In this document: piece after piece, positions 6,563 through 11,291 of the stretch
Numbering within the stretch: position 1 is the first letter of the stretch
How the letters are laid out: each line of letters starts with the position of its first letter
DNA from: Ramlibacter tataouinensis
GTDB taxonomy: Bacteria > Pseudomonadota > Gammaproteobacteria > Burkholderiales > Burkholderiaceae_C
Direction of reading: 5' to 3'
DNA: 64,000 bases
NCBI RefSeq assembly: GCF_027941915.1
Contig: NZ_CP116009.1
Location: 2,418,001-2,482,000 of the forward strand
Program-made: the position numbers and the translations under genes
The notes under the pieces: generated by a model
What the model saw: only the letters and a program-made list of their open reading frames with translations
The model's database searches: none
Told to the model about the DNA's origin: nothing

Positions 6563-6585
6563 TCGCTCGTCAGAACGGATGAAGG

Positions 6586-6609
6586 ACGCGCCCGCCCGGG
6601 CGCGTTTTT
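6586..6609 (+). terminator. Rho-independent terminator after gap
   Basis: Seven-bp GC stem (CGCGCCC with GGGCGCG), GCCC loop, then TTTTT. It lies 24 bases after the gap stop and before the cyclase gene. Confidence 0.85.
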
Positions 6610-6671
6610 CGTTCCGGCGCGGCCTATCGTGCCGCTCCGCCCGCCCGGTGCGCGGGCCGGCGAGGGGCGGC

Positions 6672-7904
6672 ATGGACGATCCGGCATTCCGGCAATGGCT
6701 CACCCGCAGGAGCTGGGCCCTGAGCGTTCGCTACTGCAAGGTGGTGGCGCTGCTGCTGCCGCCGGCGGCGCTGGTGACCGACGTGCCGCTGCTGCGCGCC
6801 AACGGGGTGGCGGGCATCGAATGGCTGCTCGCCTGGCAGCTGGCCGCCGAACTGGTCTGCCTGGTTCTGGTCGCGGCCGACCGCTGGTGGCCCGCACTGC
6901 GCGGCCGCGAGGCATCGCTGTATGCCTTCTGCACGTTGTTCATCGCCCTGTGCACCTGGATCGGCATGGCCGACGGCGGGCTGCGCGGCGACTTCGCCAT
7001 CTATGCGGCCGGCATGACGTTCGGCGCGGCGGTGGCCGCCACGCCGCGGCCGATCCGCCAGCCGCTGTATGCCGCCAGCCTGTTCGCCATCGCGGTGCCG
7101 GTGTGGCTGCGCGAGGCTGGCGACGGCGCCCGGGTGGCGGCCGGACTGGTCAACCCGTTCTGCGTGGTGATGCTGTGCCTGTGGCTGGACCGCTTCACCT
7201 GGTCGCGCGACCGCGCGCTCTATCTCGAGACGCAGCGCGCCGAAGCCGAGCGCGCCCGCGCCGACGAGGTGCTGCACAACGTGCTGCCGCCGGCGGTGGC
7301 CGAGGAGATCAAGCACGCCGGCCGGGTGCAGGCGCGCAAGTTCGACAACCTGGGCGTGCTGTTCGCCGACATCGCGGGCTTCACCAGCTTCTCGAGCCGG
7401 TTGCCGCCGGACGCGCTGGTGCTGGTGCTGGACGAGATCTTTTCGTCATTCGACGCCCTGGTGCAGCGGCATGGCGTCGAGAAGATCAAGACCATCGGCG
7501 ACGCCTACATGGTGGTCTCGCACGCCGGCGTGCCGGCCCTGTGCCGGCTGGCGCTGGACCTGCGGGCTGCACTGGAGCACTACAACCATGCGAACGGCAC
7601 CGCCATGGCCATGCGCATCGGCATCCATGCCGGCCCCGCCGTGGGCGGGGTGCTGGGTGCCCGCCGCTTCCTCTATGACGTGTGGGGCGACACGGTCAAC
7701 GTGGCCAGCCGGCTCGAGTCGGCCGGCCGGGCGGGCAGCATCCAGGTCAGCGAAGCGGTGGTGCGGCAGGCGGGCGCGGACTTCGCCTTCACCGCCCGCG
7801 GGCTGGTTGAACTGCAGGGGCGCGGCCGGGTGCTCACCTACTGGCTGCTGGGCCCGGCGCGGCCGGACAAGCTGGCGCCGGCCGCCTGGGCCGAGGCGGC
7901 ATGA
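6672..7904 (+). CDS. Membrane-anchored class III adenylate cyclase
   Basis: 410 residues. The N-terminal half carries about five or six hydrophobic segments (for example VVALLLPPAALV, LLAWQLAAELVCLVLV, ASLYAFCTLFIALC). A short helical linker (LYLETQRAEAERARADEVLHNVLPPAVAEEI) leads into a C-terminal class III cyclase domain. Catalytic residues are intact: metal Asp in LFADIAGFTSFS, metal Asp in TIGDAYM, adenine-specifying Lys in EKIKTIGD and Asp in YDVWGD, and the Asn/Arg pair in TVNVASRLES. ATP to cAMP is therefore the expected reaction. The ATG at 6672 has GAGGGGCGGC just upstream. This is one of two cyclases in the window; the other lies in the kinase cluster near 26-28 kb. Confidence 0.88.
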   Translation: MDDPAFRQWLTRRSWALSVRYCKVVALLLPPAALVTDVPLLRANGVAGIEWLLAWQLAAELVCLVLVAADRWWPALRGREASLYAFCTLFIALCTWIGMADGGLRGDFAIYAAGMTFGAAVAATPRPIRQPLYAASLFAIAVPVWLREAGDGARVAAGLVNPFCVVMLCLWLDRFTWSRDRALYLETQRAEAERARADEVLHNVLPPAVAEEIKHAGRVQARKFDNLGVLFADIAGFTSFSSRLPPDALVLVLDEIFSSFDALVQRHGVEKIKTIGDAYMVVSHAGVPALCRLALDLRAALEHYNHANGTAMAMRIGIHAGPAVGGVLGARRFLYDVWGDTVNVASRLESAGRAGSIQVSEAVVRQAGADFAFTARGLVELQGRGRVLTYWLLGPARPDKLAPAAWAEAA

Positions 7905-7964: not shown

Positions 7965-7995
7965 TTGACCTTGCCAGGATGGCAAGGTTTCCAAT
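7965..7995 (+). promoter_or_regulatory. MerR/CueR-type metal-responsive operator-promoter
   Basis: A perfect 9-bp inverted repeat, ACCTTGCCA (7968-7976), GGA, TGGCAAGGT (7980-7988), overlaps a -35 TTGACC (7965-7970). It is followed at 19 bp by a -10 TCCAAT (7990-7995). A dyad inside an over-long 19-bp spacer is the hallmark of promoters twisted into activity by MerR-family regulators, and the half-site ACCTTGCC matches CueR/HmrR-like copper sites. The predicted transcript starts at or next to the ATG at 8003. No MerR-family gene is in the window. Confidence 0.75.
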
Positions 7996-8002
7996 CGTGC
8001 GC

Positions 8003-8344
8003 ATGAACACCTCTACCGCTTACCGCCGACTCATCGATCGACTGGACCGCAACGCTCCGCCCGAGGAGCAGTGGCGCCTGCTGATGGCCGCCCACGTGGC
8101 CGGCCAGCTCGTGCTGCGCCTGCACTGGGACAGCCACTGCCGCATGCTGGCACTGGCCTGGCGCCAGCGCGACATCGGCGAGGTGGCCGGCCAGCTGCTG
8201 CGCCTGGCGCTGGTGCCCGTCGGCCATGCGCTGCAGCGCCTGCCGGCGGGCAACGTGGGCCGGGCGACCGTGAACGCGTTCCGGCCGATGCAGCCGCCGC
8301 CCGAGGTGGCGGCGCTGCTGCGCTGGGCCCGGGGCGCGGACTGA
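8003..8344 (+). CDS. DUF3703 family protein, probably metal-responsive
   Basis: 113 residues, mostly helical. It matches DUF3703 through HVAGQLVLRLHWDSHCRMLALAW, the central QLLRLALVPVGHALQRLP, and the C-terminal GNVGRATVNAFRPMQPPPEV; several conserved His residues could bind metal. The biochemical function of the family is not known to me. The ATG at 8003 is chosen over upstream in-frame starts because the MerR-type promoter lies inside the longer version, with its -10 ending only 7 bases before this ATG. The message would be leaderless or nearly so, and there is no Shine-Dalgarno sequence. The stop is 10 bases from the convergent topB stop. Confidence 0.75.
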   Translation: MNTSTAYRRLIDRLDRNAPPEEQWRLLMAAHVAGQLVLRLHWDSHCRMLALAWRQRDIGEVAGQLLRLALVPVGHALQRLPAGNVGRATVNAFRPMQPPPEVAALLRWARGAD

Positions 8345-8354
8345 AGGAGCTGGT

Positions 8355-11291
8355 TCAGCCCAGGTGCTTGCCGACCAGGCCGGCCAGCTCGAACATGGTC
8401 ACCTGCGGCTTGCCGAACACGGCCTGCAGCTTGGGGTCGGCATTGATGGCGCGCTTGTTGGTGGCGTCCTGCAGGCCGTTGGCCTTGATGTAGTCCCAGA
8501 GCTTGCGGATCACCTCGGTGCGCGGCAGCGGCTCGGGCCCGATCACCGCGGCCAGTTCCGCGCTGGGGGTCAGGCCGGGGCCGGCCTTGCGCGGCGCCTT
8601 GGGCTTGGCCGCGGCCTTCTTCGCGGCGGCCGGCGCCTTCTTGGCCGCTGGGGCCGCCTTCTTCGCCGCGCCCTTGCCGGCGTACTTTGCCGCCGGTTCG
8701 CGCGCGGCCTTGCCGGCCGCCCCCTTGCGCGGCGGGAACTTGCTCTCGCGCGGCTCGAACGCGAAGTTGACCTTGCCGGCTTCGGCGTCCCAGGCCAGGA
8801 AGGCCTTGAACGGGCGGCGCGTGCGCATCGAGACGAACTTGTCCAGCAGGTCGGTCTTGCCGCTGGCCAGCAGCTTGGCCATCTGCTCGCGCTCGACCGG
8901 CTGCTGCAGGATCACCTGGCCGCTCTTGAAGTCGCAGCTCGGGGTGGGATGCGCCGCGGTCGGCACCGAGTTCTCGCAGACATAGTTCTTGCCCCATTCG
9001 AACACCCGGGCGCCGCACTTGGGGCAAGGACCCAGCGGCTGCTGGCCGCTGAAGTCGATCAGCTCGCCGGTCTGCGCCGGATCCTGTTCGCCGCCGAAAT
9101 CGAACTCCAGTTTCCAGTTCTTCTCGTCCTCGTCGTAGGTCAACGCGATCTCGGCGGTAAAGGGCCAGCCGGCCTTGGAGCGGAAGCCCTCGAGCGGGCC
9201 GAGCCGCTTGTCGCGCAGGAACTGCTCGGCCTCGGCGATTTCGAACGGCCGCCCGGCCGGAATCTTGGTGAAGGAAAAGCCGCAGGCGTCCTCGCCACTG
9301 CCGCTGCGGCCGGTGCAGGCATAGCGGCGGTAGTTCTCGCGCACCACGCCGCCGCAATTCGGGCACGGGGTGGCCAGCGTGGCGTAGTCGCCGGGCACGG
9401 TGTCGCGGTCGTACTCCTTGGCCTTCTTGACGATGTGCTTCGTCATCTCGCCGATCTCGCGCATGAACTCGTCGCGCGACAGCCGCCCGTGCTCCATCTG
9501 GGCCAGCTTGTACTCCCACTCGCCGGTCAGCTCGGGGCGGGTCAGTTCCTCCACCCCGAGGCCGCGCAGCAGCGTCATGAGCTGGAACGCCTTGGCCGTG
9601 GGCACCAGCTCGCGTCCCTCGCGCAGCATGTACTTCTCGTTGATCAGGCCTTCGATGATGGCGGCGCGGGTGGCCGGCGTGCCCAGCCCCTTTTCCTGCA
9701 TCGCGTCGCGCAGCTCCTCGTCCTCGATGCTCCGGCCGGCGGTCTCCATCGCGCCCAGCAGCGTGGCTTCCGAGTAGCGCGCCGGCGGGCGAGTCTTCAG
9801 GCCGCGCGCTTCCACCGATTCGGTGCGCACCATCTCGCCCGGCTGCACCGGCACCAGCGTGCGGCTGTTCTCGTCGGCGGCATCGCCGCTGTCGGCCTCC
9901 TTGCCCCAGATCGCCAGCCAGCCGGGCTTGACCAGCACCTTGCCGTCGGTGCGGAAGCTGTGGCCCGCCACCTGGCTGATGCGCGTCGTCACCAGGTATT
10001 CGGCGGCCGGGAAGAACACCGACAGGAAACGGCGCACCACCAGGTCATACAGCTTCTGCTCGGCATCCGACAGGCCGTGCGGCGCCTGCAGGGTGGGGAT
10101 GATGGCGAAGTGGTCGCTGACCTTGCTGTTGTCGAACACCCGCTTGGTCGGCTTGACGTACTGGTTCTCCAGGGCCTGCCGGGCGAACGGCGCCAGGTGG
10201 CCCATGCCGCTGTCGGCCAGCATGCCCATGGTCTGGCCGACCGTGCCCAGGTAGTCTTCCGGCAGGTGCTTGGAGTCGGTCCGCGGGTAGGTCAGCGCCT
10301 TGTGCCGTTCGTACAGCGACTGGGCCAGCGCCAGCGTGGTCTTGGCCGAGTAGCCGAAGCGGCCGTTGGCCTCGCGCTGCAGCGAGGTCAGGTCGAACAG
10401 CGGCGGCGCCGCGCGCGTCTGCGGCTTGGACTCCTCGGTGACCGTGGCGGCCTTGCCGCGCACCGCGTCGGCGATCGCCTGGGCTTCCTTGAACGACCAC
10501 AGCCGATCGGCCTTCTGCTCGGCATCCTCCGGGTTCTTCTTCCACTTGGGGTCGAACCACTTGCCCGGGTATTCGCCAGCCTCGGCCAGGAAGCTGGCAT
10601 GGATTTCCCAGTAGTCGCGGCTGACGAACTTGCGGATCTGCTCCTCGCGCTCGACCACCACCGCCAGCGTCGGCGTCTGCACCCGGCCGACGGTGGTGAG
10701 GAAGAAGCCGCCGTCGCGCGAGTTGAACGCGGTCATGGCGCGCGTGCCGTTGATGCCGACCAGCCAGTCGGCTTCCGAGCGCGAGCGCGCCGCCGAGGCC
10801 AGGCCTTCCATCTGGCGGTCGCTGCGCAACTGCTCGAAGCCATCGCGGATGGCCTGCGGCGTCATCGACTGCAGCCACAGCCGCTTGACCGGCTTGCCCA
10901 GCGCCTTGCCGGCACCGGCGTACTGCTCGATCAGGCGGAAGATCAGCTCGCCTTCGCGCCCGGCGTCGCAGGCATTGATCAGCTCGGTGACGTCCTTGCG
11001 CCGGGCCAGCCGGACCACCGCATTGAGCCGGCCCTTGGTCTTGTCGACCGGCTTGAGCTCGAAATAGGGCGGGATCACCGGCAGGTGGGCGAAGCTCCAC
11101 TTGCCGCGCTTGACGTCGAACTGTTCGGGCGCCTGGATCTCCACCAGGTGGCCCACGGCGCTGGTGACCACGAAGTCCTCGGCCTCGAAGTACTCGTCGT
11201 GCTTGTCGAACTTGCCGGCGACCGGCGCCAGGGCGCGCACGATGTCCTGCGCGACCGACGGCTTCTCGGCAATGACCAGAGTCTTTCCCAT
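8355..11291 (-). CDS. topB: DNA topoisomerase III with C-terminal SWIB domain
   Basis: Type IA topoisomerase, 978 residues, longer than E. coli TopB (653). Order: Toprim (LVIAEKPSVAQDI, INACDAGREGELIF); catalytic core with active Tyr335 in ALTYPRTDSKHLP; zinc-ribbon-like repeats (ATPCPNCGGVVRENYRRYAC and GPCPKCGARVFEW); a Lys/Ala-rich stretch at about 865-905 (AKKAAPAAKKAPAAAKKAA, KPKAPRK) resembling histone H1-like tails; then a SWIB/MDM2-type domain (LPRTEVIRKLWDYIKANGLQ, NKRAINADPKLQAVFG) to the end. It relaxes and decatenates single-stranded or hemicatenated DNA. The ATG at 11289-11291 gives the exact family N-terminus MGKTLVIAEKPSV. It is divergent from a SET-domain gene. Confidence 0.94.
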   Translation of the reverse strand: MGKTLVIAEKPSVAQDIVRALAPVAGKFDKHDEYFEAEDFVVTSAVGHLVEIQAPEQFDVKRGKWSFAHLPVIPPYFELKPVDKTKGRLNAVVRLARRKDVTELINACDAGREGELIFRLIEQYAGAGKALGKPVKRLWLQSMTPQAIRDGFEQLRSDRQMEGLASAARSRSEADWLVGINGTRAMTAFNSRDGGFFLTTVGRVQTPTLAVVVEREEQIRKFVSRDYWEIHASFLAEAGEYPGKWFDPKWKKNPEDAEQKADRLWSFKEAQAIADAVRGKAATVTEESKPQTRAAPPLFDLTSLQREANGRFGYSAKTTLALAQSLYERHKALTYPRTDSKHLPEDYLGTVGQTMGMLADSGMGHLAPFARQALENQYVKPTKRVFDNSKVSDHFAIIPTLQAPHGLSDAEQKLYDLVVRRFLSVFFPAAEYLVTTRISQVAGHSFRTDGKVLVKPGWLAIWGKEADSGDAADENSRTLVPVQPGEMVRTESVEARGLKTRPPARYSEATLLGAMETAGRSIEDEELRDAMQEKGLGTPATRAAIIEGLINEKYMLREGRELVPTAKAFQLMTLLRGLGVEELTRPELTGEWEYKLAQMEHGRLSRDEFMREIGEMTKHIVKKAKEYDRDTVPGDYATLATPCPNCGGVVRENYRRYACTGRSGSGEDACGFSFTKIPAGRPFEIAEAEQFLRDKRLGPLEGFRSKAGWPFTAEIALTYDEDEKNWKLEFDFGGEQDPAQTGELIDFSGQQPLGPCPKCGARVFEWGKNYVCENSVPTAAHPTPSCDFKSGQVILQQPVEREQMAKLLASGKTDLLDKFVSMRTRRPFKAFLAWDAEAGKVNFAFEPRESKFPPRKGAAGKAAREPAAKYAGKGAAKKAAPAAKKAPAAAKKAAAKPKAPRKAGPGLTPSAELAAVIGPEPLPRTEVIRKLWDYIKANGLQDATNKRAINADPKLQAVFGKPQVTMFELAGLVGKHLG

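Follow-up and report, generated by a model that had tools for sequence, protein, structure and literature searches.

A predicted CueR-type copper promoter in front of a DUF3703 gene of Ramlibacter tataouinensis

No described function was found for the DUF3703 family in the literature searched. The locus described here raises the question of whether one of its members answers to metal, and if so to which metal and through which regulator. The gene lies in a window of 64,000 nucleotides, which is part of a 4.47-Mb single-contig genome (G000:C1:2418001-2482000), and its product scores 97 bits against Pfam PF12487 (gathering score 22.3, E 8e-28). From the design of its promoter we infer that the gene is very probably copper-inducible, through binding of CueR, and belongs to the CueR regulon.

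Promoter and gene

The features of the locus, in window coordinates, are as follows.

6579..7904, + strand: adenylate/guanylate cyclase gene, upstream neighbour; syntenic in Ramlibacter sp. Leaf400 and also upstream in genome G186
7965..7970, + strand: -35 element TTGACC, read directly; the same hexamer is shared with the boxes of copA, copZ, the second ATPase gene, the His-rich protein gene and the CDF gene
7968..7988, + strand: CueR-type operator, a perfect 9-3-9 dyad ACCTTGCCA GGA TGGCAAGGT with arms complementary at 9/9 positions
7971..7989, + strand: promoter spacer of 19 bp, the length of MerR-activated promoters, read directly (PMC1526738)
7990..7995, + strand: -10 element TCCAAT, read directly; identical in the 69%-identical Leaf400 orthologue
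8002..8003, + strand: predicted start of transcription, on the A of the ATG or one base 5' of it, judged by the spacing from the -10 and by the orthologue comparison
8003..8344, + strand: DUF3703 gene (P0001), 113 aa, PF12487; GC by codon position 0.81/0.50/0.93
8355..11288, - strand: topB-like DNA topoisomerase gene (SWIB domain), convergent neighbour; topB and DUF3703 are adjacent in 11 genomes of the genus

The first-pass annotation placed a perfect 9-3-9 repeat inside a 19-bp spacer between TTGACC and TCCAAT. The repeat, the two hexamers and the spacer length are correct base for base. The dyad, however, begins in the last 3 bases of the -35 element and thus spans the -35 and the spacer instead of lying wholly within the latter. 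The distance it gave from the end of the -10 to the ATG at 8003 agrees with direct reading, seven bases (7996-8002) separating the two. Allowing up to 3 mismatches, the dyad pattern matches once in the 64-kb window and never in 100 shuffles. The -10 TCCAAT is weak, and a weak -10 is usual for MerR promoters. The published CueR/HmrR design is a palindrome in a promoter with a 19-bp spacer (PMC1526738); the layout here matches it, as well as the genome's own copper genes, in keeping with the earlier description of a MerR-activated design with copper-type half-sites.

The 7-nt gap to the -10 predicts a leader of nearly zero length. The transcript is predicted to be near-leaderless, starting at or beside the A of the ATG, and the orthologue comparison backs this reading of the spacing. 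In Cupriavidus metallidurans, tagRNA-seq has revealed many leaderless mRNAs, including those of copJ, merP and czcI2 (PMC7563307); there the leaderless metal-gene mRNAs were measured, whereas here the leader length is deduced from spacing and comparison. Two other start codons were rejected, as GTG 7997 would lie 5' of the predicted transcription start and the in-frame ATG 8084 would cut off the conserved first helices. The terminator search found no intrinsic terminator at the DUF3703 gene, and the upstream cyclase gene is not thought to be part of the copper unit.

The same box at the copper genes, and CueR

The pattern TTGACCTT-N11-AAGNTT has five exact matches in the whole genome and seven with at most one mismatch; its reversed control pattern has none in the whole genome. 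The genes behind the five exact boxes are the DUF3703 gene, a copA-type ATPase gene (ATG 6 nt past the -10), the divergent gene for a CopZ-like chaperone, a second copper-type ATPase gene whose product has a His-rich start, and the gene for a small His-rich exported protein. Two of the five flank the copA/copZ divergon, one on each side. The inner half-site bases at the DUF3703 gene are CCA/TGG, as at copA and copZ; in CDF-DUF3703 operons they are AAG/CTT. A box with one mismatch stands in front of a CDF exporter gene. This box (L104, G000:C1:809246-809270, - strand) is CueR-type and the exporter ZitB/DmeF-like, with a poor -10, GAGGAT, and an ATG 58 nt off. Another one-mismatch match, at 3076704, has no clear dyad and is probably due to chance.

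Overlapping the copA-type gene is a CueR gene (L009), which scores 166 bits against TIGR02044 (cut-off 147.4) and whose product can be aligned to E. coli CueR across the C-x7-C copper-ligand region. Searches with the CueR and CadR-PbrR models found no second metal-type MerR regulator above cut-off in the genome; the best CadR-PbrR score, 85.6 where 151 is needed, belongs to the same CueR gene. The remaining MerR-family proteins were rejected as candidate regulators: judged from their sequences they look MlrA-, LiuR- and CarH-type, along with a cyclase fusion, and none passes the CueR or CadR-PbrR cut-off. A genome scan for the dyad and for a CueR/HmrR gene, suggested in the first-pass annotation as a check, has thus yielded five exact boxes, all at DUF3703 or copper-type genes, and one CueR equivalog. 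Because the box is common to the genome's copper genes and CueR is the only metal-sensing MerR regulator, the DUF3703 gene is predicted to be a member of the CueR regulon.

In the proposed mechanism, a dimer of the CueR encoded behind copA would occupy the 9-3-9 dyad of the promoter, whose 19-bp spacer is over-long, and apo-CueR would keep the promoter off. With Cu(I), or also Ag(I) or Au(I), bound, CueR would underwind the spacer DNA, which would let sigma-70 RNA polymerase use TTGACC and TCCAAT together. Underwinding of the spacer is the established activation mode of the MerR family. Transcription would begin from or beside the A of the ATG, producing an mRNA with almost no leader, and the DUF3703 product would then aid copper tolerance in the cytosol.

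The locus resembles the CueR/HmrR copper regulon in its palindrome in a 19-bp spacer, its TTGACC -35, its half-sites ACCTTGCCA, which are those of the genome's copA and copZ, and the CueR equivalog behind copA (PMC1526738). The members named for that regulon are transporters, chaperones, a multicopper oxidase, cytochromes and GST (PMC1526738). DUF3703 is not among them, and here it is a lone gene beside topB with a predicted near-zero leader. The putative CueR promoter is sound and of ordinary design, and it is the target that is unusual. DUF3703 also occurs in MerR-controlled heavy-metal clusters, for instance the cad/pbr-type operons of plasmid pA81 of Achromobacter xylosoxidans A8 and of Aquincola plasmid B. 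Unlike the lone gene with a copper-type box described here, the gene in those operons accompanies a P-type ATPase, a CDF gene and lspA, and the sensor is of CadR/PbrR type. A literature search for the pbt operon returned unrelated papers only.

Orthologues, the wider family and competing explanations

DUF3703 adjoins topB in 11 genomes of the genus Ramlibacter. Only two of these orthologues, those of the window and of Leaf400, have a CueR-type dyad; the other nine lack it, though those tested encode CueR. The pattern TTGACCTTNCCANNNTGGNANGGTTTCCAAT has a single exact match in the genome collection, that of Ramlibacter sp. Leaf400, whose orthologue has the same neighbours and 69% protein identity. 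Its box, ACCTTCCCACGGTGGCAGGGT, is followed by the -10 TCCAAT 6 nt before the ATG, and its dyad pairs at only 7/9 positions. A TopB tree built from ten of the 11 genomes makes the window and Leaf400 mutually nearest (86% identity); both fall in a well-supported group of four, whose internal branching is tentative. As only these two carry the dyad among the 11, the copper wiring appears to be lineage-specific, a trait that the window's lineage alone acquired (or retained) among the topB-adjacent orthologues. Since 9/11 are without the dyad even where CueR is encoded, copper control would also not be essential to the DUF3703 gene. Elsewhere in the genus, CueR-type boxes precede two further DUF3703 genes, in G164 and G195. 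Back-translated patterns found no close relatives in the genome-collection contigs.

Read by eye, seven orthologues without the copper box (G172, G180, G181, G194, G150, G161 and G200) have TTGACA or TTGACC, mostly an 18-bp spacer, a TACNAA-like -10 and an ATG 5-7 nt on. As the leader would be short in these seven too, its length is predicted to be independent of the copper box.

Several further observations were made in the genus. Of the 11 genomes read, 10 have the copA ATG 6-7 nt past the -10 (L100, L109, L112, L114, L116-L118, L120, L123, L132); copZ, unlike CueR-driven copA, mostly has a leader of about 22-38 nt. Common to the non-copper orthologues L080-L085 is TTGACA-(N)-GTA-(N)-TGTTACNAAT, the GTA being central in several of them, and this may be a further regulated promoter. 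Upstream of L075 and L076 there is a 7/9 dyad that is not copper-type. In the DUF3703 copies L073 (G176), L075 (G179) and L076 (G161) the reading frame is broken by a stop codon or by what look like frameshifts, so that some species seem to be losing the gene, unless the drafts are in error.

Across the family, 11 of 69 DUF3703 genes have a MerR-type promoter directly upstream (TTGAC, a 19/20-bp spacer and a dyad within ~300 bp of the start), and the same scan of 800 kb of control DNA (both strands, same genomes) found none. Four of the 11 are copper-type (window, Leaf400, G164 and G195), and the half-sites of the others differ, most of them being CadR/PbrR-like. In 31/70 DUF3703 loci, vs 0/120 control windows, there is a gene for a heavy-metal ATPase, CDF, MerR or RND protein within 1.5 kb, a measure of recurrence and not an unbiased census, because the queries were drawn from annotated plasmid DUF3703 neighbourhoods. 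In plasmid annotation DUF3703 stands beside P-type (heavy-metal) ATPases, CDF/cation transporters, cadR, lspA, cadmium transporters and ArsR, and most metal-linked relatives sit with Cd/Pb/Zn-type systems. A second clade adjoins a cytochrome-c-peroxidase-like gene (13 loci). In this clade (e.g. L059, L053, L055, L025, L078) a conserved palindrome, CTTGAACGAAAAGGCTGC...GCAGCC...TTCGTTCAAG, precedes DUF3703, FixH-like or cytochrome c peroxidase-like genes, and is possibly another regulator's site. The lead of a metal response first suggested for this gene therefore applies, as a predicted copper response, to the window's lineage; for the family it widens to heavy metals broadly, mostly in Cd/Pb/Zn-type operons. 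Given the CueR-type promoter here and the clustering of relatives with heavy-metal pumps, the DUF3703 family probably takes part in metal resistance in bacteria.

The promoter might instead be served chiefly by a divalent-metal sensor of the CadR/PbrR/ZntR kind, and answer Cd, Pb or Zn but not copper. Among DUF3703 loci with a MerR box, most indeed carry half-sites of CadR/PbrR-like type, and their -10 region, GGTTTCCAAT, is the one found here. CadR of Rubrivivax gelatinosus also binds the copA promoter, or copA-type boxes, and contributes to CopA expression (PMC11591864), which favours such an arrangement as well. We nevertheless consider it unlikely, as the genome encodes no CadR/PbrR/ZntR-like regulator above cut-off and the inner half-site bases are those of its copper genes. 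Much the least probable is that the dyad acts as an RNA hairpin, terminating or attenuating transcription of the cyclase gene, and resembles a promoter only incidentally. The end of the cyclase gene lies some 60 nt upstream, and the transcript could form a 10-bp stem (-15 kcal/mol), but this fold is little better than those of shuffles (z -1.56), and five copper or CDF promoters have the same -35, 19-bp spacing and copper half-sites. No T tract of terminator type was found, and the terminator reading was rejected on that ground.

A CueR box that is real but captured by chance, or that regulates something else, would leave DUF3703 with no metal role of its own. The genus orthologues beside topB, with plain-looking promoters and outside metal operons, are in line with this, as are the decayed copies in G161, G176 and G179. 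Against it, CueR boxes are found in no fewer than three separate lineages of DUF3703 within the genus, and the family at large has strong ties to metal operons; we judge this reading slightly less probable still than a divalent-metal sensor. Copper induction through CueR remains the preferred reading.

The protein and its possible role

Nine residues are invariant in 41 DUF3703 sequences: H31, Q35, H41, H45, E60, Q64, P81, N84 and G86. H75 is present in 31 of the 41, and the other ten, which have T or S, form the second clade. Most Cu(I) carriers have conserved Cys. None is conserved in the 41 sequences, and this speaks against a Cu(I) carrier of the classical thiolate kind. One DUF3703 copy (L078:1192-1839, - strand, G187:C98) has a long Cys-rich, metallothionein-like C-terminal tail (CICTGTCTGNCTCAGTCSC...).

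The structure model, a confident one (pLDDT 96.8), is all-helical, with helices at residues 3-12, 20-33, 38-54, 58-77 and 100-109. The order of the helices would bring H31, H41 and H75 together at one end of the bundle and place H45 a turn further in. Conservation and helix order together suggest metal binding through the invariant H31, H41, H45 and E60. A PDB sequence search with the family profile gave no match, and Foldseek gave no significant match (best E 1.3). A second look at the Foldseek candidates with VIA returned a best Z of 8.4 and mostly 5-7, for common helical arrangements that are uninformative on function. Most likely, DUF3703 is a small cytosolic, all-helical accessory protein of metal resistance that binds or passes metal via conserved His. 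A broader and more tentative proposal, which we put at a little under even, is that it represents an unrecognised cytosolic helical metal-handling family with a His site (H31, H41 and H45, plus H75 in one clade), repeatedly recruited by different MerR-family sensors (CueR, CadR/PbrR-like), with each lineage fitting the protein to its own metal.

As predicted here, the CueR regulon would be extended to a new type of target, DUF3703. The main value of the finding is a functional lead for DUF3703, which becomes a directly testable metal-resistance family.
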